This document shows positions 1,762 to 27,830 of a stretch of DNA of 27,830 bases, piece after piece. The stretch spans positions 1 through 27,830 of the IMG/VR virus record IMGVR_UViG_3300028394_000260; one strand, 5' to 3'. Each line of letters begins with the position of its first letter. Positions within the stretch are counted from its first letter, which is position 1. This DNA comes from a virus. The position numbers and the translations under genes were made by a program. The notes under the pieces were generated by a model. It was not told the DNA's origin and ran no database searches. It saw nothing but the letters and a program-made list of their open reading frames with translations.

Positions 1762-3168
1762 TTAACCCGTCGTTGAGTCGGCTATTTGCTGCCCAGTCGT
1801 CGCTACAGTTGCGGCATTTGCCAGCCGTTCTCCAAAAGAGCCGCTGGTCAGGGAGTTGCTTGTTAAATACGCCCACACATCCGCAGGCGTCAGTGCTGCC
1901 GTACCCACGCCCGTACCCACAGCCACGCCCGACTGCACCGCTGACGCCACGGGTACAGCCATCGTGCCGGTGGTGTTGCCAGCGTTATATGTCGTTCCTG
2001 CCCGCACGTTGCTTGCAGCGGGCAGGGCATTGGCAACCGTGGTCGCGTCAATGAGTGTTTTGGTCGTGCTGGCGGTCTTGGCAAACACAGCCACGTTGCT
2101 CGTTGCGTCCGTGAGCCTGATCGGCCCCGCCGTTGGTGCCTGACCTCGCGGGCCGAATTCAAACTCCGACACATAGGTCAACGATCCTGCGGCAGAACTC
2201 ACCACACCGGGTGCTGCCGTGAACCCTGTTGACCCCGGCCCGAACCCATTTCCTTTTGCCCGCAGCACAGTCAGCGTTCCGGTACTGGAGTTTTGCGCAC
2301 CCGCTGCCGCAGACCCTCCGGTGCATGTGTTGTTGATTGTGACCGTGCCTGTGCTTGCGTTGGTGACCGCAACAGCCGCACCTCCGGTCACGGGGCAGTT
2401 GATTTGGATTTCTCCAGACGATGTGTTGGCGATCAGCGGGTATGCACCCGCCGCGACCGTGCATCCGGCAGCAATGGTTATCAACCCTGTACCGGAGTTA
2501 TAAACCGCGTAGCTTCCGCCGCCAGCAGCAGTGAACGACGAACCCGCCAAGAAATTGACCCTGCCTGACGCAGCGTTTTGGCAACCAAGACCGCCAGCGT
2601 TTGTCGGCGACGCGATTACAGTACCCGTGATGTTGATCGTTCCAGTGCTTGAGTTCACCACAGCGCTGTATTGCCCAGCACCAGTGATGGTCGCAGGGAT
2701 GGATGCCGTACCTATGTTGAGCGTTCCGCCTCCAGTGTTGTCGGCTCCGTAACAGCCCTGACCGCCTGTCCCGTAAATATTCCCCGCAATTACATTCAAC
2801 GTGCCGAGGCCAGTGTTCCGAACGCCGACGTTGAAGTAGATCGCCCCTGCGTAAATAACACCCGACGCACCCGCGTTGACCGTCGCTGATGTTCCAGCGT
2901 TTCCGTTGAATTGCAAACACAGCGCTCCGTTGGTGTTGTTCCCGTACACGTTTGCGTAGAGCGTAGCTCCGTTTCCCAAGACGAACCCACCAGTTGCAGT
3001 AGCCCCGCCCGTTGTGTCGTTGCGAATCTCAAGGCACGTTGCGTCAGCAGTGATCGTGATTGTTCTGGAGTTCGCCACAGCAACGTCGCCTGTGGTCGGC
3101 ACAACGCCACCTATCCACGTACTTGTGGCGTTGAAGTTGCCACTTGCTGCTGCCAAAATAATTGCCAT
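1762..3168 (-). CDS. Predicted beta-helix structural/appendage protein, copy B
   Basis: Protein of 468 residues, very rich in Gly, Ala, Thr, Asn and Ser. The N-terminus (STWIGGVVPTTGDVAVANS) has the Trp...Gly-Gly-x-x-Pro-x-x-Gly-Asp pattern of G8-like openings in phage surface proteins. The middle is built of short repeats of the type NSSTGTINITG, STGTVTINNT and NSGTGLITIA, as in stacked right-handed beta-helix rungs. The C-terminus (LTPADVWAYLTSNSLTSGSF, then GERLANAATVATTGQQIAD) is a tail common in phage virion proteins. It is a paralogue of the gene just upstream, with matching ends and a diverged centre. Probably a fibre, spike or head decoration; the precise role is unknown. The ATG lies two bases after the upstream gene's stop, so translation is probably coupled. 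Confidence 0.75.
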   Translation of the reverse strand: MAIILAAASGNFNATSTWIGGVVPTTGDVAVANSRTITITADATCLEIRNDTTGGATATGGFVLGNGATLYANVYGNNTNGALCLQFNGNAGTSATVNAGASGVIYAGAIYFNVGVRNTGLGTLNVIAGNIYGTGGQGCYGADNTGGGTLNIGTASIPATITGAGQYSAVVNSSTGTINITGTVIASPTNAGGLGCQNAASGRVNFLAGSSFTAAGGGSYAVYNSGTGLITIAAGCTVAAGAYPLIANTSSGEIQINCPVTGGAAVAVTNASTGTVTINNTCTGGSAAAGAQNSSTGTLTVLRAKGNGFGPGSTGFTAAPGVVSSAAGSLTYVSEFEFGPRGQAPTAGPIRLTDATSNVAVFAKTASTTKTLIDATTVANALPAASNVRAGTTYNAGNTTGTMAVPVASAVQSGVAVGTGVGTAALTPADVWAYLTSNSLTSGSFGERLANAATVATTGQQIADSTTG

Positions 3169-3170
3169 GG

Positions 3171-4508
3171 TTACACCAATGAGTCTGCAATCTGTTGCCC
3201 AATCGTTGCCACTGTTCCGGCGTTCTTAAGCCGCTCTCCCATGCTTCCGCTTGTCGTGGCCGACGCAGTGAGGTATGCCCACACAGCAGCAGGAGTGAGC
3301 GCCGCCGTGCCTGTGGTGGCATCAACAGCCACGCCCAGAGCTACCGAGCCAGCAGCAGGGATCGCGCATGTGCCGGTGTTGTTGCCAGAGTTGTATGAAG
3401 TGCCCAGCCGAACGTCGGAGACGGCAGGCACATAGGACGCAGTAGCGGCCGCATCGACAAGCGTTTTCTTCGACAGGCCAACACGGTACATGATCGACTG
3501 ATTCGACGCCACATCGGTCAACCAAACAGCACCACTCACGGGCGACATGCCAAGGTCGCCGTATTCGATATTGGAAACGTAAGCAACTCCCGTGTTGACC
3601 AACCCGTATTGAGCGGTGACGGTTGCTCCGACGCCAAACGCATTTCCTTTGACTGTCGTGCATGCGCTGATCGTCCCTGAGTTTGAAACGCCAGCAGCGC
3701 CCGGCCCGCCGACCGCTGCACCAATAGAAGTTACCGTGCCAGCGTTGGACAACCCCACGCTCCCAGTTCCTCCAGTGCATGAACCGCTGACGCTCACTGT
3801 CCCTGCCGCGCTGTTGATTACACCATTCGCAGAGGCACCAGAACCTCCGGTCACGTTTCCTGTGATGTAAATAAACCCAGCGCCCACATTGTTGACTGTG
3901 TTTTGAGCGGAACCAGCTTGCCCAATGCCTCCAGTGAGGGTTCCGGTGAGGTTGATGTTTACAGTACCCCCTTGCTCGTTTCTGACTGCGTTTACCGTTG
4001 CACTGGTGGCTCCCGTTGCAATCGCCACAGCACCGGTGATATTCACCGTTCCACTCGATGCGTTCCGCACTCCGTATGTGTTTGAAGAAGTCGCGGCGTT
4101 TGCTCCGTTGATGTCGCCCACTATGTTCAGCGTGCCTGTGGATAAGTTGCTGATTGCGCCTTGGTTGTTCGCGGCGTCGTTTTGAAGTGTGCCGGTCATC
4201 CTTGCCGAGTTGCCAGAGAGACCTGAGTACACGAACGCTGCGGTGTTCGCGTTGGTGCAGCGAAATCCGCCAACCGGCGTTGCCGATGATCCTGTTCCGA
4301 TCATCTCGCAGCCGTTGCTCAACACGAACTGACCGCCCGCCACAGTGCTAGTCGACAGCACTTGAAACTCTTGGCACTGCACTGTGCCTGTGACGGTGAT
4401 CGTCTTCCCGTTGGCAACAGCAATGTCGCCAGTACCGGGGACAACGCCACCCGTCCATGTGCTGCCGGTGCTGAAGTTGCCGTTGGCCGCCGCAAGGATC
4501 GTTGCCAT
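3171..4508 (-). CDS. Predicted beta-helix structural/appendage protein, copy A
   Basis: Protein of 445 residues and tandem paralogue of the gene at 1762-3168. It has the same N-terminus (ILAAANGNFSTGSTWTGGVV, then PGTGDIAVANGKTITV), a middle of Thr/Gly/Asn rungs such as NASSGTVNITG and NLSTGTLNIVG, and the same C-terminal segment (LTPAAVWAYLTASATTSGSM, then GERLKNAGTVATIGQQIAD). The rung repeats suggest a right-handed beta-helix of the kind found in receptor-binding spikes. No catalytic residues stand out. The start is supported by AAGGG seven bases upstream of the ATG. It is sandwiched between fibre genes, which supports an appendage role; this is inference from context and composition. Confidence 0.75.
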   Translation of the reverse strand: MATILAAANGNFSTGSTWTGGVVPGTGDIAVANGKTITVTGTVQCQEFQVLSTSTVAGGQFVLSNGCEMIGTGSSATPVGGFRCTNANTAAFVYSGLSGNSARMTGTLQNDAANNQGAISNLSTGTLNIVGDINGANAATSSNTYGVRNASSGTVNITGAVAIATGATSATVNAVRNEQGGTVNINLTGTLTGGIGQAGSAQNTVNNVGAGFIYITGNVTGGSGASANGVINSAAGTVSVSGSCTGGTGSVGLSNAGTVTSIGAAVGGPGAAGVSNSGTISACTTVKGNAFGVGATVTAQYGLVNTGVAYVSNIEYGDLGMSPVSGAVWLTDVASNQSIMYRVGLSKKTLVDAAATASYVPAVSDVRLGTSYNSGNNTGTCAIPAAGSVALGVAVDATTGTAALTPAAVWAYLTASATTSGSMGERLKNAGTVATIGQQIADSLV

Positions 4509-4820: not shown

Positions 4821-6488
4821 TTATGCGTACGTAGCTGAAAGTCTATCTGTCCACGCTACACTGGTTGCCGTGGTGCGCGTGCTGATCGTGCCGGCACTCG
4901 TAACCAGCGTCTTTTTAATTGTCCAAACAGCCGATGATTCAGATGACCCTGACGCCGCTGTGCCGATATACATAAACCCCGATACGAAATCAGAGCGCAC
5001 TACATTTTTTAAGGCTGTGGGGCCTGTAGCTCCAGTTACACCAGTGATTCCTGATACGCCAGTTGGACCAGTCGTTCCTACGCCTGTTGGCCCTGTGGCG
5101 CCAGTTACACCTACGACGCCGGTAGCGCCAGTGATACCAATTGGGCCGGTAGCTCCGCTAACTCCAATTGAGCCGGTAGCTCCCGTTACACCTACAGCAC
5201 CTGTAGCGCCTGTAGCTCCGTCGCGTCCAACATAACCTGCTACACCAGTCGCGCCGGTTACACCCACCAAACCGCTCGGACCAGTTGCGCCGTCGCTGCC
5301 GACGTATCCGGCTACGCCTGTAGCGCCGGTTATACCAATAGGTCCAGTTGCGCCGCTAATCCCAATTACACCAGTTGCTCCGGTTATGCCGATTAAACCA
5401 TTTGGGCCAGTGGCGCCAGATACCCCTACAAAGCCAGTAGCGCCGATGGGGCCAGTTGCGCCGGTTACACCTACAACTCCAGTAGCGCCTGTAATCCCAA
5501 TTGGGCCAGTAGCCCCAGATACACCTACAACACCAGTAGCGCCGGAAACGCCTATTACGCCCGTAGCTCCTGTAATTCCAACTGAGCCAGTAGCGCCAGA
5601 AATACCTGTGACGCCCACTACCCCCGTAGCACCAGTTACGCCTACTATACCGGTAGCGCCGCTAACGCCTATTACGCCAGTAGCTCCGGTTACTCCAATC
5701 GGGCCAGTTGCGCCTGATACGCCTACTACGCCGGTAGCGCCTGTAACGCCTACCAGCCCGGTAGCTCCGCTAACGCCGATTACGCCAGTAGCTCCGGTTA
5801 CTCCAATGAGCCCTGTTGCGCCACTAACCCCAATTACACCAGTAGCGCCACTAATCCCAATTACACCAGTAGCTCCTGTAATACCAATAGGGCCAGTAGC
5901 GCCAGAAACGCCTGTAACGCCCACTACGCCCGTAGCGCCAGTTACTCCTACTGCACCAGTAGCGCCAGTTGCACCAGTCAGCGGCAAATTAGTCAGCGGC
6001 GCGCTGCGCCAAAGCTGCGTAAGCGGGTCATATATGAGCGCGGAGCGTTCTGTCGGCGTACCGGGGCTAACGTTTGTTAGCTTCTCCAGCGCAAAAGGCG
6101 GCGTAAATAACGGCTGCCAGTTTGCTAAAACAGTTGGATCTGAGCCGCGCAGAATAAACGTCTGCTCAATGTCTTCGCGTAAAGCGTGGTCGCCCTGCTG
6201 TACGCCCAGCGCCAACATTGCGGCTTCAGAGGCCACAACGTAGGTTTCAGTCACAGCCAGCGCAGGCAGCTGGCTAACTTCCAGCCGGCCTGTCGCTACG
6301 TTTAGGGTAGCCACACCACCCGCCACGCCACGCGCCGAATTAGGTACAGCGTCTGCCGCGGCTACAATAGCGGCAATTGTGGTCTTTTTCGTTTTGAGCC
6401 GCGCCATAGCCGAGTCGACTATGGGCACAATGTCCGCTGGAGCCAGCGTAGACTTTAGCTCCAATTCGGATATTTTTTTCTTGCTCAT
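4821..6488 (-). CDS. Collagen-like phage tail fibre protein
   Basis: Protein of 555 residues in four parts. Residues 1-48 ([20 protein letters not shown], then [14 protein letters not shown]) form the N-terminal segment shared with the collagen-like protein at 1-808. Residues 49-170 resemble a linker domain common in phage tail fibres ([20 protein letters not shown], then [15 protein letters not shown]). Residues about 171-490 are uninterrupted Gly-X-Y repeats, mostly GVTGATG and GISGATG in 9-residue blocks. The last 65 residues ([26 protein letters not shown], and a Trp near the end) form the short tip domain typical of such fibres. It is probably trimeric and involved in host recognition. 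No strong Shine-Dalgarno is seen; a TATAAT lies 35 bases upstream. Confidence 0.88.
5020..5979. repeat. Collagen Gly-X-Y coding repeat array
   Basis: About 960 bases of 9- and 27-base degenerate periodicity encode Gly-X-Y triplets (minus-strand units resembling GGC GTA ACT GGC GCT ACT GGC). The repeats vary at synonymous positions and are not separated by unique spacers. Low-complexity arrays like this are prone to slippage, so length may vary between isolates. The opposite strand stays open in one frame as Pro-Val-Ala-Pro repeats, a by-product of the composition. Confidence 0.85.
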
Positions 6489-21358: not shown

Positions 21359-22276
21359 TTATCGAGTGATGTCGGAACGTGGTTTGGGGCGTGCTGCCGG
21401 CGCGGCTTCGTCCGCCTTCTCATCTGATGCTGCTTCAGCGGCTTCTTCACGCCGCTGAATCTCAGCTACAACCTGCTCGCACATAGCGATGTGGTTTGAA
21501 ATAATGTCCGACAACTGGCTGAAGTTATCGACAATCTCCGACAGATAGCTCAGCACTGTCGTGTCGAGCTTAGCTGGCGGAGAGTTCATGATGTCGTTGT
21601 ACAGGTCATCGTCTTTCTCGGTCAGCCACAAACTGGTTGACCGGCCAATAAACCGCCGCTGGTGTTGCAGCAAGTCGTAGACCTGCTGCTTCAGGCCCTT
21701 GGGCGCCTGATGCGTGCGGCCGCTTGTCTTCTGTTTGCCGCGGATCTCTTGCAACTCAGCCGCCAGCGTCTTGGCTGTGTAGGCTTCTTCGGCACAGCGT
21801 TCCTCCACCGCAGCCCGCTGGGTGTCATCGGGAATCTGCGACAGCAACTGCACGTGAGAAGCTGTGATGCGCCAACGCGGACGCTCTGGGCAACGCATAC
21901 CCAGCAGCCGGCGAAGCTCGCTTTCGCTGGGGTACCGCTCGAAGAACGACATGGCGCTGCGAAGCTGTTCGACAGAGTACACCGGCGCAAAAATAGATAT
22001 CAATAACCCAGCGCCATCTATATGGCTGGCCTGCTGCTGCTCTGTCAAATACTTGTCTGGATCGTCCCGCACTTCGGTGAGCAACTTGCCGACTCGCCAG
22101 TACGTCGTCACGTTGGCGGTCTGGATATCGCCAAACAACCGGTCGATCTCGCCGACTACGCGCTGCAAAGCTGGCTTCAAGTCAGCATGGGCAGGCATAC
22201 TGAGCGCTGACGGCTCTGTAGCCGTTAAGGCTGTTTGGCTTGCTGCCGCCATTTCAGTTTTAGACTTTCTTGTCAT
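21359..22276 (-). CDS. DUF1016 (YhcG) N-terminal-like protein without nuclease domain
   Basis: Protein of 305 residues. Residues about 50-180 follow the pattern of the DUF1016 N-terminal helical domain: Tyr-Trp-Arg-Val-Gly-Lys at 59-64, LRSAMSFFERYPSESELRRL near 105-124, RWRITASHVQLLSQIPD at 134-150 and ERCAEEAYTAKTLAAEL. In YhcG-type proteins a PD-(D/E)XK nuclease follows; here the remainder is a helical region (LSEIVDNFSQLSDIISNHIA) and an acidic Ala-rich tail, with no D-ExK seen. It may be a DNA- or protein-binding derivative. AAGGAG five bases before the ATG gives a very strong ribosome site. The family assignment is by eye. Confidence 0.5.
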   Translation of the reverse strand: MTRKSKTEMAAASQTALTATEPSALSMPAHADLKPALQRVVGEIDRLFGDIQTANVTTYWRVGKLLTEVRDDPDKYLTEQQQASHIDGAGLLISIFAPVYSVEQLRSAMSFFERYPSESELRRLLGMRCPERPRWRITASHVQLLSQIPDDTQRAAVEERCAEEAYTAKTLAAELQEIRGKQKTSGRTHQAPKGLKQQVYDLLQHQRRFIGRSTSLWLTEKDDDLYNDIMNSPPAKLDTTVLSYLSEIVDNFSQLSDIISNHIAMCEQVVAEIQRREEAAEAASDEKADEAAPAARPKPRSDITR

Positions 22277-24534: not shown

Positions 24535-25899
24535 CTATTCTACTTGGCCCAGTGGATCAAAATCAGCCGGAATGATATCTGCCAACGAGCTGGACGCAGC
24601 CATAAGCTCTGGCACATCGGTCATCTGTTGTTTCTTCAACTCTGCCATTACCTGATCGCGATAACGGCAAGCCGGGTCGCACAACGGGTAGTCGTTTACG
24701 CCAAGAATGCCATGCAGCATTCCCACTACCTTTTTGTTGCCCTCCAAAATTATCGACGCTTCTACCTCAGAGACAGCATCAGACTTTGAGATACCAAGCG
24801 CCGTGGAATAAACCAGCGGCGTCTCGGAGTTCTTGGTGCCGTGCTTGTACTCCAGATCGCAAACTTGCCTAATCAACCCGGGCAGCTTGGGGTCCATTCC
24901 CGGGGGCAACTTGGCAGACGCGTTTTGCAGATCGACCAGCAGCCGTGCCGTAGCTGTGTGCCAGTCCCAATAATGGTACTGCTTGTTTTTATATGTCTCG
25001 TTGCCCTCTGCATCACGCCCCACTGCAATCTCGTTGTACCACAGCAGATTAACAACGATTTTCCTATCTTTAGCGCCAAGGTTGTTCTTGCTCGCCACAA
25101 TACGCACGGCTTGCCCTTCAGTCCGCCCGGCAATCAGATCTTTGCTGGACGCCTTGGACATGTCGAGGATCATCGTGGCGTAGTAGTCCAGAGCAGCGCC
25201 GCCGGGAGCGTACTTTTTTGGCGGACCAAAACCAGAGCCGCCAATGTCTTCCTTCAAGTGGTTTGTGCCCACCAGCGCAATTGGGTACCGCCGCAACGTT
25301 GGCACCAAAGCTGTCCGCATGAAATCTGACAAGTTGCGGGCCAGATATGGATGCCCCGCAGCAGCGTGACCTTCGTCGGCCACTTTGTCTACGCGCCGCT
25401 CCACCTCGACAGCCGAAATAGAGTCGAGGCCAATGCACACAGGGATCGACTTGTCGGCAGCGTCCAATTGTTTGTGCAACGCCTGACAGAAACCCATGTA
25501 CTTCTTCTGCCACTCTTCTACAGTCGCGGCTGTAACGACGCGAGTACGAGACATGTACTGCTCGTTGTGCTGAAACAACCCAGCCATCATGGTCGGAGAA
25601 CCTTTGTTCTCAGTGTCGATCATGATGGCGCCGCCGCCGTACACGTGAAACCACCGCATGATCTCAATCAGCAAAGCTGACTTACCGGCGCTAAACTCTC
25701 CACGCAGTTGCACAAACCGAGACAGTGGAAAGATATTGGCCTGAAACAGATACCGGGCAGACAACGCCGGCAAAGGCAAACCGATCAGCGGCTCGTTATC
25801 TTCGTCACTGCCCTGCAACACTTCTGTGATGACAGGATGCTCGTCGTGACGAGCCTGTGCGTCAACTGCGTTGTCTTCTTCTTTACGTTTACGGCCCAT
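24535..25899 (-). CDS. RecA-like (UvsX-type) recombinase
   Basis: Protein of 454 residues with a RecA-fold ATPase core. Walker A is GEFSAGKS at 67-74 and a strand-end acidic motif is MIDTENK at 93-99. Walker B is VCIGLDSISAV at 154-164. A RecA-like Asn-His sensor lies at GTNHLKEDIG, followed by the family Gly-Gly-x-Ala-Leu-x-x-Tyr signature (GGAALDYYATMILDM, 233-247). The C-terminal 150 residues are unlike bacterial RecA and resemble phage versions. It should form filaments on single-stranded DNA and promote strand exchange for recombination-dependent replication. The ribosome site is weak (AGAAAGA). It is preceded by a long inverted repeat (25917-26027). Confidence 0.85.
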   Translation of the reverse strand: MGRKRKEEDNAVDAQARHDEHPVITEVLQGSDEDNEPLIGLPLPALSARYLFQANIFPLSRFVQLRGEFSAGKSALLIEIMRWFHVYGGGAIMIDTENKGSPTMMAGLFQHNEQYMSRTRVVTAATVEEWQKKYMGFCQALHKQLDAADKSIPVCIGLDSISAVEVERRVDKVADEGHAAAGHPYLARNLSDFMRTALVPTLRRYPIALVGTNHLKEDIGGSGFGPPKKYAPGGAALDYYATMILDMSKASSKDLIAGRTEGQAVRIVASKNNLGAKDRKIVVNLLWYNEIAVGRDAEGNETYKNKQYHYWDWHTATARLLVDLQNASAKLPPGMDPKLPGLIRQVCDLEYKHGTKNSETPLVYSTALGISKSDAVSEVEASIILEGNKKVVGMLHGILGVNDYPLCDPACRYRDQVMAELKKQQMTDVPELMAASSSLADIIPADFDPLGQVE

Positions 25900-25916: not shown

Positions 25917-26027
25917 AAAAATGCCCGGGCGGCAGTACGTTGGTTATTTTCCAGTTACAGGACATTTTCCGGTGTCAGAAAATACCGGCAAACAGGAAAT
26001 TGGCAAGTACTGCCGCCCATGATTTTT
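25917..26027. promoter_or_regulatory. Long inverted repeat between the GHKL-nuclease and recombinase genes
   Basis: GGGCGGCAGTAC at 25927-25938 is perfectly inverted as GTACTGCCGCCC at 26007-26018, 68 bases apart. The pairing can extend outward through AAAAAT (25917-25922) and ATTTTT (26022-26027) after a small mismatch (GCCC against ATG). The loop contains a smaller hairpin CCGGT...ACCGG. It fills the 134-base gap between the GHKL-nuclease stop (26034) and the recombinase ATG (25899). It may be a bidirectional terminator, an RNA control element, or a recombination or replication site. Only the symmetry is directly seen. Confidence 0.6.
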
Positions 26028-26033
26028 CCAATC

Positions 26034-27677
26034 TTAAATGTAGTAGCTATCATTATCGAGTTTCAATTCGCGCAACGTGTACAACGCAATTTCGACACCC
26101 AAATCGTTTTTTACGCGTCTAGCCGTTTCTCTTGCGCCAGTTGAAAAATTTTCAGCGACTAATTGCCCATATTTCTTATCAGCGTTTGGAGACATAAATA
26201 TGTAGCCAAACGTTTGCATAACGTCTTTACCGTCCGCTGAATCCGGTTTTAGTTCAATAACGCAACCAGTTTTATCCGCTTCGTCAGCGTAATAAAATAT
26301 GTCTGCTTTGCCGCCTGAACCTTCAATTGAATACTCTGGGTGGACAACTGGTTTTTTGCCCGAGCCCGGAATTAGCGTGCGAAGACGCGCAACGTAACGG
26401 TCGCGGTACACCGCCTCAAGTTCGGTTTTATCTTTGCCGTCTTTGTTGGTATCTGTTGCCCATTCACCAATTAACGGCTGCACACGCGCGTATATACGGG
26501 CACGTAATTCTTGCCAGTTACCGTCGTCAACAATTCCGTTTTTTTCGTAAGTTGTTGAAAACCCGTTCAACAGCGTAATTACGCCCGTGTACGGTACGTA
26601 CGTGTTAGACGAGTTATTGCCGCCAAAAGCTGCAATATCAAGCGACGTTATTACTTTGCCGTGCATAACAACATGCACTTTGCGATTGTATTGATAACAG
26701 GGATGACGAGATTTCGGCCCATCAATTCCGGCAGTTGCGTACTCGTCGTCTTGCGCTGCCCTGCCGAATTCAAGAATTGCCGCGTATTTTCTTCCGTCTG
26801 GGCCCACGCCGCTAAATTTTTCTTGGTCAATTGTCGGGCGAGAAGCGTTTCGGTACTGCTGCACAACAGGCTGAATATCCCACACACAATCAACATCACC
26901 ATCTTTGTTTAACAGGGGCGAACCGTCTTTATTGCACAGCCGCAAACGCAAAGAGAGTCTGTGACCGTGAAACGTGTCGCCTGCCAACAACCGCGCATAT
27001 TTGAAACCCAGCTGCGATATCACGTGTGTCGTGTAGTCTTGCCGGCGCCGGTAAATGCCTTTTTCAGACAAACCTACAATGTAGAACTCTGTTCCGTGCT
27101 CATTTTCAGCAAAAATTTCGTTATCGTACCGTACGGGTATTTCGCCAAACGGGCGCGATGGATTTTCGTGGTCGTGGTATGAAAACCGATAGCCATGGTT
27201 TTCATTTTTAGTTTTTGTAACTATGTACCGGAGTGAGTCGGCATGCTTACAAAACATAAGCAACATCGTTTTCATACCAACGCCGTGCTCGTGCAAACTT
27301 TCATACTCTGGATTTGTCTTCGACAGCTCACCCAAAGCAAGACATTGCTCAAGACGATCAAGTTCAATTCCGGGGCCATTATCGCGAAGCCGCATCCACG
27401 CAGTTTCAAGGTCCAGCGTGCCTTTTGCCCAATCGCCGCCAATTGTTAACTCCACAGAAATGTCGCCAAAGTGCGCCATTTCAGCTGCGGGGTTATCAAT
27501 ACCCTCACTAACTGTTTCATTAAACCCGCGGTCTGTGTACGTGAGCCGCTCCCACGGACGCGGCCAACCGCGCGCTAAAGAACCCGGAGCTAGAATGTTC
27601 AGTATTTTTGCCACCCTGCCGTCGCCGGTTGCGGATGTGGTCGGCGCAGCGGGTGTTAAAACTGAAGTAGCTGACAT
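26034..27677 (-). CDS. GHKL ATPase fused to PD-(D/E)XK nuclease-like domain
   Basis: 547-residue protein. Residues 45-200 are a GHKL (MutL/Hsp90/MORC-type) ATPase. The N-box-like block is ETVSEGIDN (54-62), the G1 box is Asp-Asn-Gly-Pro-Gly-Ile (99-104), the G2 box is HGVGMKT (131-137) and the G3-like Gly-Thr is at 195-196. Residues about 446-490 match a PD-(D/E)XK nuclease core: YSIEGSGGKADIFYY with Asp459, CVIELKP with Glu475 and Lys477, and a trailing Gln488-Thr-Phe-Gly-Tyr. ATP-driven dimer clamping could therefore gate DNA cleavage. Start at ATG 27677, preceded by AAGGA; a longer frame upstream would run through the leader hairpin. It is followed by the inverted repeat and the recombinase. 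The usual Mg-binding Asn of the N-box appears to be Glu58. Confidence 0.72.
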   Translation of the reverse strand: MSATSVLTPAAPTTSATGDGRVAKILNILAPGSLARGWPRPWERLTYTDRGFNETVSEGIDNPAAEMAHFGDISVELTIGGDWAKGTLDLETAWMRLRDNGPGIELDRLEQCLALGELSKTNPEYESLHEHGVGMKTMLLMFCKHADSLRYIVTKTKNENHGYRFSYHDHENPSRPFGEIPVRYDNEIFAENEHGTEFYIVGLSEKGIYRRRQDYTTHVISQLGFKYARLLAGDTFHGHRLSLRLRLCNKDGSPLLNKDGDVDCVWDIQPVVQQYRNASRPTIDQEKFSGVGPDGRKYAAILEFGRAAQDDEYATAGIDGPKSRHPCYQYNRKVHVVMHGKVITSLDIAAFGGNNSSNTYVPYTGVITLLNGFSTTYEKNGIVDDGNWQELRARIYARVQPLIGEWATDTNKDGKDKTELEAVYRDRYVARLRTLIPGSGKKPVVHPEYSIEGSGGKADIFYYADEADKTGCVIELKPDSADGKDVMQTFGYIFMSPNADKKYGQLVAENFSTGARETARRVKNDLGVEIALYTLRELKLDNDSYYI

Positions 27678-27713
27678 AGTAAATCCTTTCAAAGTAAAGA
27701 TATGAAAACCCAA

Positions 27714-27763
27714 CCGCGGGGCCGCCGTGCTACAACGACGAGCGCAGGCACAGGGCCCCGCGG
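27714..27763. promoter_or_regulatory. GC-rich leader hairpin before the GHKL-nuclease gene
   Basis: CCGCGGGGCC and GGCCCCGCGG form a perfect 10-base stem, with a second inner pair GTGC/GCAC, around a 17-base loop. It ends 36 bases upstream of the ATG at 27677. On the minus strand it is followed by TTGGGTTTTC, not a clean T-run. It could attenuate transcription, stabilise the mRNA or control translation. The remainder of the gap 27678-27782 holds only the AAGGA ribosome site and no gene. Confidence 0.5.
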
Positions 27764-27767
27764 CGGA

Positions 27768-27798
27768 CAAAAACAACAGAGACTAAGCCTTCTTAGTC
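27768..27798 (-). terminator. Probable Rho-independent terminator
   Basis: GACTAAG, loop AAGG, CTTAGTC forms a 7-pair stem on the minus strand. TCTGTTGTTTTTG follows downstream, a T-rich but interrupted tract. It overlaps the stop codon (27783-27785) of the gene at the right edge, mirroring the stop-in-stem arrangement at 13518-13553. It would separate that gene from the GHKL-nuclease leader. Confidence 0.5.
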
Positions 27799-27830
27799 GC
27801 GGCGGCACGGGCACGCGCCCGGGCCAGAAT
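27783..27830 (-). CDS. 3' end of a gene with Ala/Arg/Lys-rich tail (partial)
   Basis: Fifteen codons then TAG read ILARARARAAATKKA on the minus strand. The basic, Ala-rich composition is typical of nucleic-acid-binding tails, as in histone-like proteins, but no domain is visible because the gene continues beyond the window. The adjacent terminator supports a real gene end. Confidence 0.5.
   Translation of the reverse strand: MLARARARAAATKKA

Follow-up and report, generated by a model that had tools for sequence, protein, structure and literature searches.

A GHKL ATPase Fused to a Predicted NucS/EndoMS-Type Nuclease in a Variable Slot of a Probable Tailed Phage Genome

The virus record IMGVR_UViG_3300028394_000260 (27,830 bases, denoted here as the window) encodes on its minus strand a 547-residue protein in which an N-terminal GHKL ATPase is joined to a C-terminal PD-(D/E)XK nuclease domain. 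In this report, we demonstrate this domain architecture, identify the nuclease as NucS-type by profile and model, and find that both sets of active-site residues are invariant among the aligned relatives. The gene is patchily distributed among related phages and is foreign in composition, and its cellular relatives mostly stand in restriction or other conflict loci. The reading that we prefer, to which we give somewhat better than even odds, is an ATP-gated DNA endonuclease that the phage carries as accessory cargo and would employ most probably in genome conflict. Taken separately, the ATP-gated endonuclease mechanism is likely and the conflict role moderately likely. The features of the fusion gene are as follows.

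26034 to 27677, minus strand: GHKL ATPase/NucS-like nuclease fusion gene, ATG at 27677, stop at 26034, 547 amino acids.
27684 to 27689, minus strand: ribosome-binding site AAAGGA, 6 bases 5′ of the fusion-gene ATG, by direct reading.
27063 to 27587, minus strand: GHKL ATPase domain, residues 31-205 (Pfam, and VIA-align over residues ~30-414).
27492 to 27506, minus strand: N-box E58-G-I-D61-N62 (E58 and D61 in 21/21 members, N62 in 20/21).
27369 to 27383, minus strand: G1 motif D99-N-G-P-G103 (D99 and G103 in 21/21).
27270 to 27290, minus strand: G2/ATP-lid motif E130-H-G-V-G-M-K136 (E130, H131, G132, G134, and K136 in 21/21).
26523 to 27062, minus strand: S5-type transducer, residues 206-385, matched by structure to MORC/SMCHD1/topo VI-B ATPase modules (K379 in 21/21).
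26073 to 26429, minus strand: predicted PD-(D/E)XK nuclease domain, NucS/EndoMS-like, residues 417-535 (model, fold, and profile matches).
26202 to 26336, minus strand: nuclease active-site set E448, D459, E475-x-K477, Q488xxxY492 (each in 21/21, aligned with the same NucS residues).

The reading frame is intact from ATG to stop (547 codons plus the stop) with the boundaries given in the first-pass annotation of this DNA, which had been made from the letters and their translations. That annotation had recognized a GHKL ATPase by DNGPGI and HGVGMKT, and the assignment holds: DNGPG lies at D99-G103 and EHGVGMK at residues 130-136, and the Pfam domain HATPase_c_3 matches with an E value of 1.9e-6, above the curated cut-off. 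The N-box, G1, G2, and GT motifs of the GHKL superfamily are all present, together with the Bergerat fold. The proposed kinship to MORC and MutL proteins was recovered at the level of profile and of fold. A family profile searched against the PDB matched MutL, MORC3, and topo VI-B with E values of 2.1e-5, 1.5e-4, and 5.7e-4, respectively. The predicted model of the full-length protein (predicted local distance difference test score, pLDDT, of 72.8) matched SMCHD1 (2.2e-14) and MORC3 (1.3e-11), and also MORC2-DNA, topo VI-B, and MutL. With VIA-align, residues ~30-414 gave Z values of 18-19.5 against SMCHD1, MORC3, and MORC4. The GHKL plus S5 module, which is part of the definition of prokaryotic MORCs, is thus present in the fusion protein by structure comparison. 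Lys379 is likely the ATP-contacting lysine, a role known from the GHKL family. Glu54, previously suggested as the site for an ATPase mutant, was found to be E, T, D, or S among the relatives, and the catalytic glutamate is the invariant E58.

Iyer et al. 2008 (PMC2292703) describe the MORCs as unified by an S5-domain motif, GhXhhpXXRhl. This motif was found exactly in 15 of 21 family members, compared with 0.2-0.8% of trials with shuffled sequences. In the same test of 21 members, it was missing from the window protein and from the copies on contigs L021 and L029. By sequence, the family as a whole is MORC-like and the window copy fails the strict motif; since that motif is absent from the window copy, the window protein is referred to as MORC-like.

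The C-terminal 167 residues were modeled separately from the rest of the protein, with a pLDDT of 86.7 and values of 90-98 for most of the core blocks. The order of elements is helix-helix-strand-strand-strand-helix-strand-helix-strand, which contains the alpha-beta-beta-beta-alpha-beta core of the PD-(D/E)XK superfamily with the D and ExK residues on strands and the Q on the next helix. Foldseek returned NucS first (1.3e-4), followed by DNA-bound EndoMS (7e-4). The VIA-align Z values for EndoMS, NucS, and AF1548 were 11.9 (root-mean-square deviation 3.2, 109 aligned), 11.8, and 11.9, respectively, and many restriction-type nucleases ranked below these three. A sequence profile built from 19 C-terminal domains of the family matched NucS, Cas4, and EndoMS with E values of 5.6e-4, 4.4e-3, and 0.035, respectively, and the D, ExK, Q, and Y residues were in register with those of NucS. 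In a profile-profile comparison using hhalign, the probability was 96% for NucS, 0.2% for the Shedu nuclease domain (represented by seven SduA_C sequences), and 0.1-0.3% for two negative controls. The spacing from K477 to Q488 is 11 residues, as in NucS, versus a longer stretch in the Shedu domains. Because the fold, the profile matches, and the ExK-to-Q spacing agree, sequence and model together identify the nuclease domain as NucS/EndoMS-type and not Shedu-type. Membership in Shedu, considered on account of VcSduA (see below), was rejected since hmmscan gave no match to PF14082 up to an E value of 10 and the hhalign probability was negligible. Shedu structures were not among the listed fold matches of the C-terminal model, which proves nothing alone.

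The kinship to NucS/EndoMS had gone unnoticed in the first-pass annotation, which had placed Asp459, Glu475-x-Lys477, Gln488, and a Tyr in the layout of a PD-(D/E)XK nuclease. This numbering is correct, and E448 completes an E-D-ExK-QxxxY set. Two checks had been named beforehand, the C-terminal fold and the conservation of Asp459, Glu475, and Lys477 in homologues. The first gave a restriction-endonuclease-type fold with NucS/EndoMS closest, and in the second the three residues were retained in 21/21 members. The presence of a GHKL ATPase and a PD-(D/E)XK nuclease in one chain is borne out by the fold and by these residues. The proposal of an ATP-gated DNA cleaver is plausible. The N-terminal DNA-binding domain of NucS is not matched in the Pfam scan; the GHKL-S5 module stands at the N-terminus, and the NCBIfam NucS model matches only residues 448-518 (E value of 0.079). 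A regular-expression search for canonical patterns of the PIP (sliding-clamp) motif, a search that does not extend to shorter variants, found none, and the MutL endonuclease motif DQHA(X)2E(X)4E is absent from the translation of the fusion protein.

The first relative to be found was a Priestia megaterium plasmid protein (27.6% identity, E value of 2e-29, residues 52-540). Alignment-based scans then yielded cellular members in Clostridium, a Clostridia metagenome-assembled genome (MAG), two haloarchaea, a Dehalococcoidia MAG, and one unclassified bacterium, and viral members as well. The alignment of 21 members consists of the window protein, the Priestia protein, six genome contigs, and 13 viral loci. 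In all 21, the ATPase residues E58, D61, D99, G103, E130-H-G-x-G-x-K136, G195-T196, and K379 and the nuclease residues E448, D459, E475, K477, Q488, and Y492 are invariant, at identities to the window protein that fall to ~20%. The retention of six nuclease residues at this divergence, together with the PD-(D/E)XK topology of the model, places the observation beyond chance. In a midpoint-rooted tree, the family forms three groups: an archaeal-virus group; the window with L021 and L029 (support 100/99); and a group of cellular, mobile-element, and prophage-like members. With this rooting, the phage clade falls with the cellular members from conflict loci and not with the viruses that hold the gene in a replication module. 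The three phage-clade members are only ~30-54% identical to one another.

Several searches bear on how rare the family is. With the window, archaeal-virus, and Priestia proteins as queries, tblastn gave no match in 50,697 phage records, and the window protein has no match in PHROGs (E value up to 10) or PADLOC. Two phyla, sampled by 299 and 295 genomes, yielded only the seed genomes, and the family is therefore rare and its distribution is not refinable by such searches. Two candidates were discarded. The first viral match, L002, came from a structural-type protein in which a single peptide matches by chance. Membership in Mza was not adopted, since two family members match the PADLOC model MzaB at 1.5e-4, too weak for an assignment.

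The genes and hairpins next to the fusion gene are listed here.

24535 to 25899, minus strand: UvsX/RecA-like recombinase (PHROG 97, E value of 6.9e-30; Pfam RecA, 6.8e-7).
25918 to 26027, minus strand: long hairpin and U-run in the gap between the fusion and recombinase genes (21-nucleotide arms, 81% complementary).
27714 to 27763, minus strand: hairpin between the upstream 'MPRY' gene and the fusion gene (10-nucleotide perfect arms, z of -3.3).
27783 to 27830, minus strand: upstream 'MPRY' gene, C-terminal end ILARARARAAATKKA*, truncated by the contig end.

Relatives of the recombinase (73-79% identical) occur in 12 other viral contigs, and in all 12 it follows the same upstream gene. The fusion gene lies between these two genes in only 2 of the 13 contigs, the window and L021. 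The L021 copy (L021:6340-7974) is an ortholog with 54% identity overall, 64% in the ATPase domain and 57% in the S5 domain, and all of its catalytic residues are retained. A family search over the whole length of the 11 other contigs, up to 205 kb, gave no copy elsewhere. The slot in L015:6602-7915 and L024:6626-7915 is occupied by an unrelated open reading frame (ORF) of ~430 amino acids with a weak DUF6551 match, as in a variable cargo site; in the remaining contigs, it holds a short ORF or nothing. The GC content at third codon positions (GC3) is 0.469 for the fusion gene compared with 0.62-0.72 for eight other genes of the window, and in L021 it is 0.516 for the fusion gene compared with 0.704 for the recombinase. 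The patchy slot, the foreign GC3, and the two hairpins that flank the gene in the window are marks of acquired cargo. The neighboring recombinase, to which the first-pass annotation had drawn attention, is indeed UvsX-like. Its adjacency is weak evidence of a shared function, since the recombinase is found in every related phage and the fusion gene in 2 of 13; a functional link from adjacency alone was ruled out by this comparison.

The hairpin at 25918-26027 has a folding energy of -50.2 kcal/mol (z of -5.75) and is without a counterpart in L021, whose gap between the two genes measures just ~24 bases. A long hairpin after the 'MPRY' gene is also found in L014, L015, L016, L021, and L025, in which the letters differ and the pairing is preserved. 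The z values are -7.0, -6.7, and -3.0 for L021, L014, and L016, respectively, and the hairpin is terminator-like or regulatory. A promoter scan of the window gave matches not above those in shuffled sequences. The window is probably a fragment, and its 650-residue portal-like protein has distant similarity to proteins from ~180-kb Vibrio and Salmonella phages; the window thus probably derives from a large tailed phage. Elsewhere in the window, positions 4821-6488 encode a 555-residue protein, probably of a fiber, in which GATG/GVTGATG repeats form a long collagen-like tract. Positions 1762-3168 and 3171-4508 encode adjacent proteins with similar N-termini, MAxILAAAxGNFxxxSTWxGGVVPxTGD, which are apparently tandem paralogues. 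A DUF1016_N-like protein (E value of 1e-6, below the cut-off) is encoded at 21359-22276 in the same gene row.

The cellular relatives mostly adjoin restriction-modification or other conflict genes. The family gene is near dcm (C5-methyltransferase), SNF2 helicase, and MutH/Sau3AI genes in L003, beside a type I HsdM gene in L008, and beside an Eco57I-type methyltransferase and an SNF2 helicase in L010. Three further rows were observed. In L013:2380-7338, a C5-methyltransferase, an unknown gene, an HhH-GPD glycosylase, and the GHKL-nuclease are consecutive, a row resembling a restriction locus equipped with a mismatch glycosylase. In L026:5957-9443, on an integrase-bearing element, an HNH nuclease, a BglII-type restriction nuclease, and the GHKL-nuclease are consecutive. 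In L011:7609-8847, a gene that combines an HSP70-like domain with a predicted pPIWI-associating nuclease domain adjoins the GHKL-nuclease. No methyltransferase was recognized in the window, which is only a fragment.

A different setting was found in 13 marine archaeal-virus contigs (L004-L007, L031-L034, L036-L038, L040, and L043). The family gene starts within ~10 bases of the end of DNA polymerase B in 13/13, and a PCNA-position gene, assigned by eye with no Pfam match, is upstream in all 11 contigs that are long enough. A PD-(D/E)XK gene (Cas4/RecB-like) is downstream. The family gene is apparently a fixed replication-module gene in these viruses. One contig carries a thermosome-like gene, assigned by eye. 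Marine group II (MGII) viruses have been reported with such a gene (PMC5332604), and the contigs are therefore probably from MGII viruses.

In the mechanism that we propose, the GHKL-S5 module (~31-385) is joined by a two-helix linker to the NucS/EndoMS-like nuclease (~417-535). ATP would be bound at E58/D61/D99/G103/EHGxGMK with Lys379 touching the nucleotide. Binding of ATP would dimerize the ATPase heads and close the clamp on DNA, which would set the two nuclease domains (E448/D459/E475/K477, Q488/Y492) on both strands, and hydrolysis of ATP would reset the clamp. The gene was presumably gained horizontally into the variable slot beside the core recombinase gene. The enzyme may cut the DNA of the host or of a competing phage, or DNA with a certain structure or modification, and the use would most likely be in genome conflict rather than in essential replication. 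The conflict role is favored because the gene is accessory and foreign in composition and because its closest relatives stand in conflict settings. Several observations weigh against it. NucS/EndoMS are mismatch-repair nucleases, and the related viral clade holds the gene in a replication module, both of which point to a role in repair. No match to PF00145 or PF01555 (C5 and N6/N4 methyltransferases) was found on the 134-kb contig of L029, the other carrier in the phage clade, and self-protection by methylation is thus unsupported. Since the window is a 27.8-kb fragment, companion genes could also be missed.

These points lead to the main alternative, which we regard as possible, if unlikely: a repair or replication nuclease, in effect a single-chain "MutL plus EndoMS", that closes an ATP clamp at mismatches, branches, or lesions and feeds the breaks to the UvsX-like recombinase. 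The nuclease is nearest to the mismatch-specific NucS/EndoMS, the ATPase also matches MutL, DNA polymerase B is the immediate neighbor of the gene in 13/13 archaeal-virus contigs with the PCNA-position gene in 11/11, and in the window it precedes the recombinase. Archaeal NucS is linked to PCNA, and recA is mentioned in an operon context, in a review (PMC8228993). However, 11 of the 13 related phage contigs lack the gene although all have the recombinase, the gene is compositionally foreign, and a strong hairpin separates it from the recombinase gene. The midpoint-rooted tree groups the phage clade with the cellular conflict-locus members, and the regular-expression search found no canonical PIP-like motif. 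A division of roles within the family, in which it would act in repair or at forks as a core replication-module "MutL plus EndoMS" in marine archaeal viruses and as a mobile conflict nuclease in tailed phages and cells, is in our view doubtful.

It is improbable that the protein is a regulatory or decoy ATPase, whose nuclease domain binds modified or junction DNA uncut while the protein serves as a clamp in the manner of eukaryotic MORC, for instance to shield phage DNA or to block host nucleases as an anti-defense. The best structural matches are to MORC/SMCHD1 proteins, whose action on DNA is binding and compaction without cleavage. However, the six nuclease residues are invariant in 21/21 members, including the three divergent phage-clade members, and a noncatalytic domain should have lost some of them. 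A degenerate passenger gene without function in the window phage is very improbable: the gene is rare and patchy with a foreign GC3, but the 547-codon frame is intact, the ribosome-binding site is present, the ATPase and S5 domains remain 64% and 57% identical to those of L021, and the catalytic residues are retained.

Coupling of a GHKL ATPase to a nuclease is known from MutL in mismatch repair, from MORC/paraMORC proteins in restriction loci, and, since 2025, from VcSduA, a proven phage defense. The family described here unites a MORC-like ATPase and an EndoMS/NucS nuclease in a single polypeptide, and viral genomes encode it in two unrelated settings: large phages carry the gene as movable cargo, and marine archaeal viruses have it at a constant position in the replication operon. 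Genome conflict and viral replication may both make use of this machine; if so, one enzyme family would be common to mismatch repair, restriction, and virus replication. These proteins are small, single-gene targets for learning how the ATP-driven closing of a clamp licenses a PD-(D/E)XK nuclease, and they bear on whether viruses carry their own mismatch-type endonuclease.

The first-pass annotation knew of no phage system with this architecture. GHKL-nuclease fusions are already known from cells (paraMORC3 and VcSduA); the viral carriage of the MORC-like/NucS-type combination, and its place in an archaeal-virus replication operon, were not found described in the open literature, supplements excluded. 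Others may already have come across the fusion, because a 2017 paper mentions NucS C-terminal domains in other architectures, left unnamed in the available text. Among phage proteins, T4 rIIA (PMC7824862) is likewise a GHKL ATPase whose C-terminal domain is variable. It differs in that the available part of that paper reports no nuclease domain for rIIA, and the window protein has no PHROG match up to an E value of 10.

With EndoMS/NucS, the window protein shares the nuclease fold and the E/D/ExK/QxxxY residues and their spacing; it differs by a GHKL-S5 ATPase module in place of the NucS N-terminal DNA-binding domain, and the regular-expression search found no canonical PIP-like motif in it. 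As in MutL, a GHKL-S5 ATPase is tied to DNA cleavage (predicted here), whereas the MutL endonuclease domain is of another fold and its DQHA(X)2E(X)4E motif is not present. The MORC/SMCHD1 modules are the closest solved structures over residues ~30-414, and the MORC motif is found in most of the relatives, whereas the window copy is without the strict motif. Eukaryotic MORCs are not known to have a fused nuclease.

The paraMORC3 group (PMC2292703) has GHKL, S5, and a C-terminal restriction-endonuclease-fold domain with E-D-ExK, is partly found in restriction-modification loci, and is described as prevalent in proteobacteria and bacteroidetes. Compared by description only, the window protein has this general layout. 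The difference is that 15 of the 21 members here have the S5 motif of the MORCs proper, which the paraMORCs reportedly lack. VcSduA (Shedu type I-D, V. cholerae) combines a GHKL ATPase with a DUF4263 PD-(D/E)xK phage-defense nuclease, and its phage defense requires both the ATPase Glu and the nuclease Lys (PMC12137116). With both activities required, VcSduA shows that one gene of this layout can act as a DNA-targeting system. The likeness to the window protein extends to a single gene, an N-terminal GHKL ATPase, a middle clamp-like domain, and a C-terminal PD-(D/E)XK nuclease. The nuclease here instead resembles NucS/EndoMS, has a K477-to-Q488 distance of 11 residues, and gives no match to the Shedu domain, and the family is distributed in viruses and mostly in restriction or conflict loci of Bacillota, haloarchaea, and Chloroflexota.
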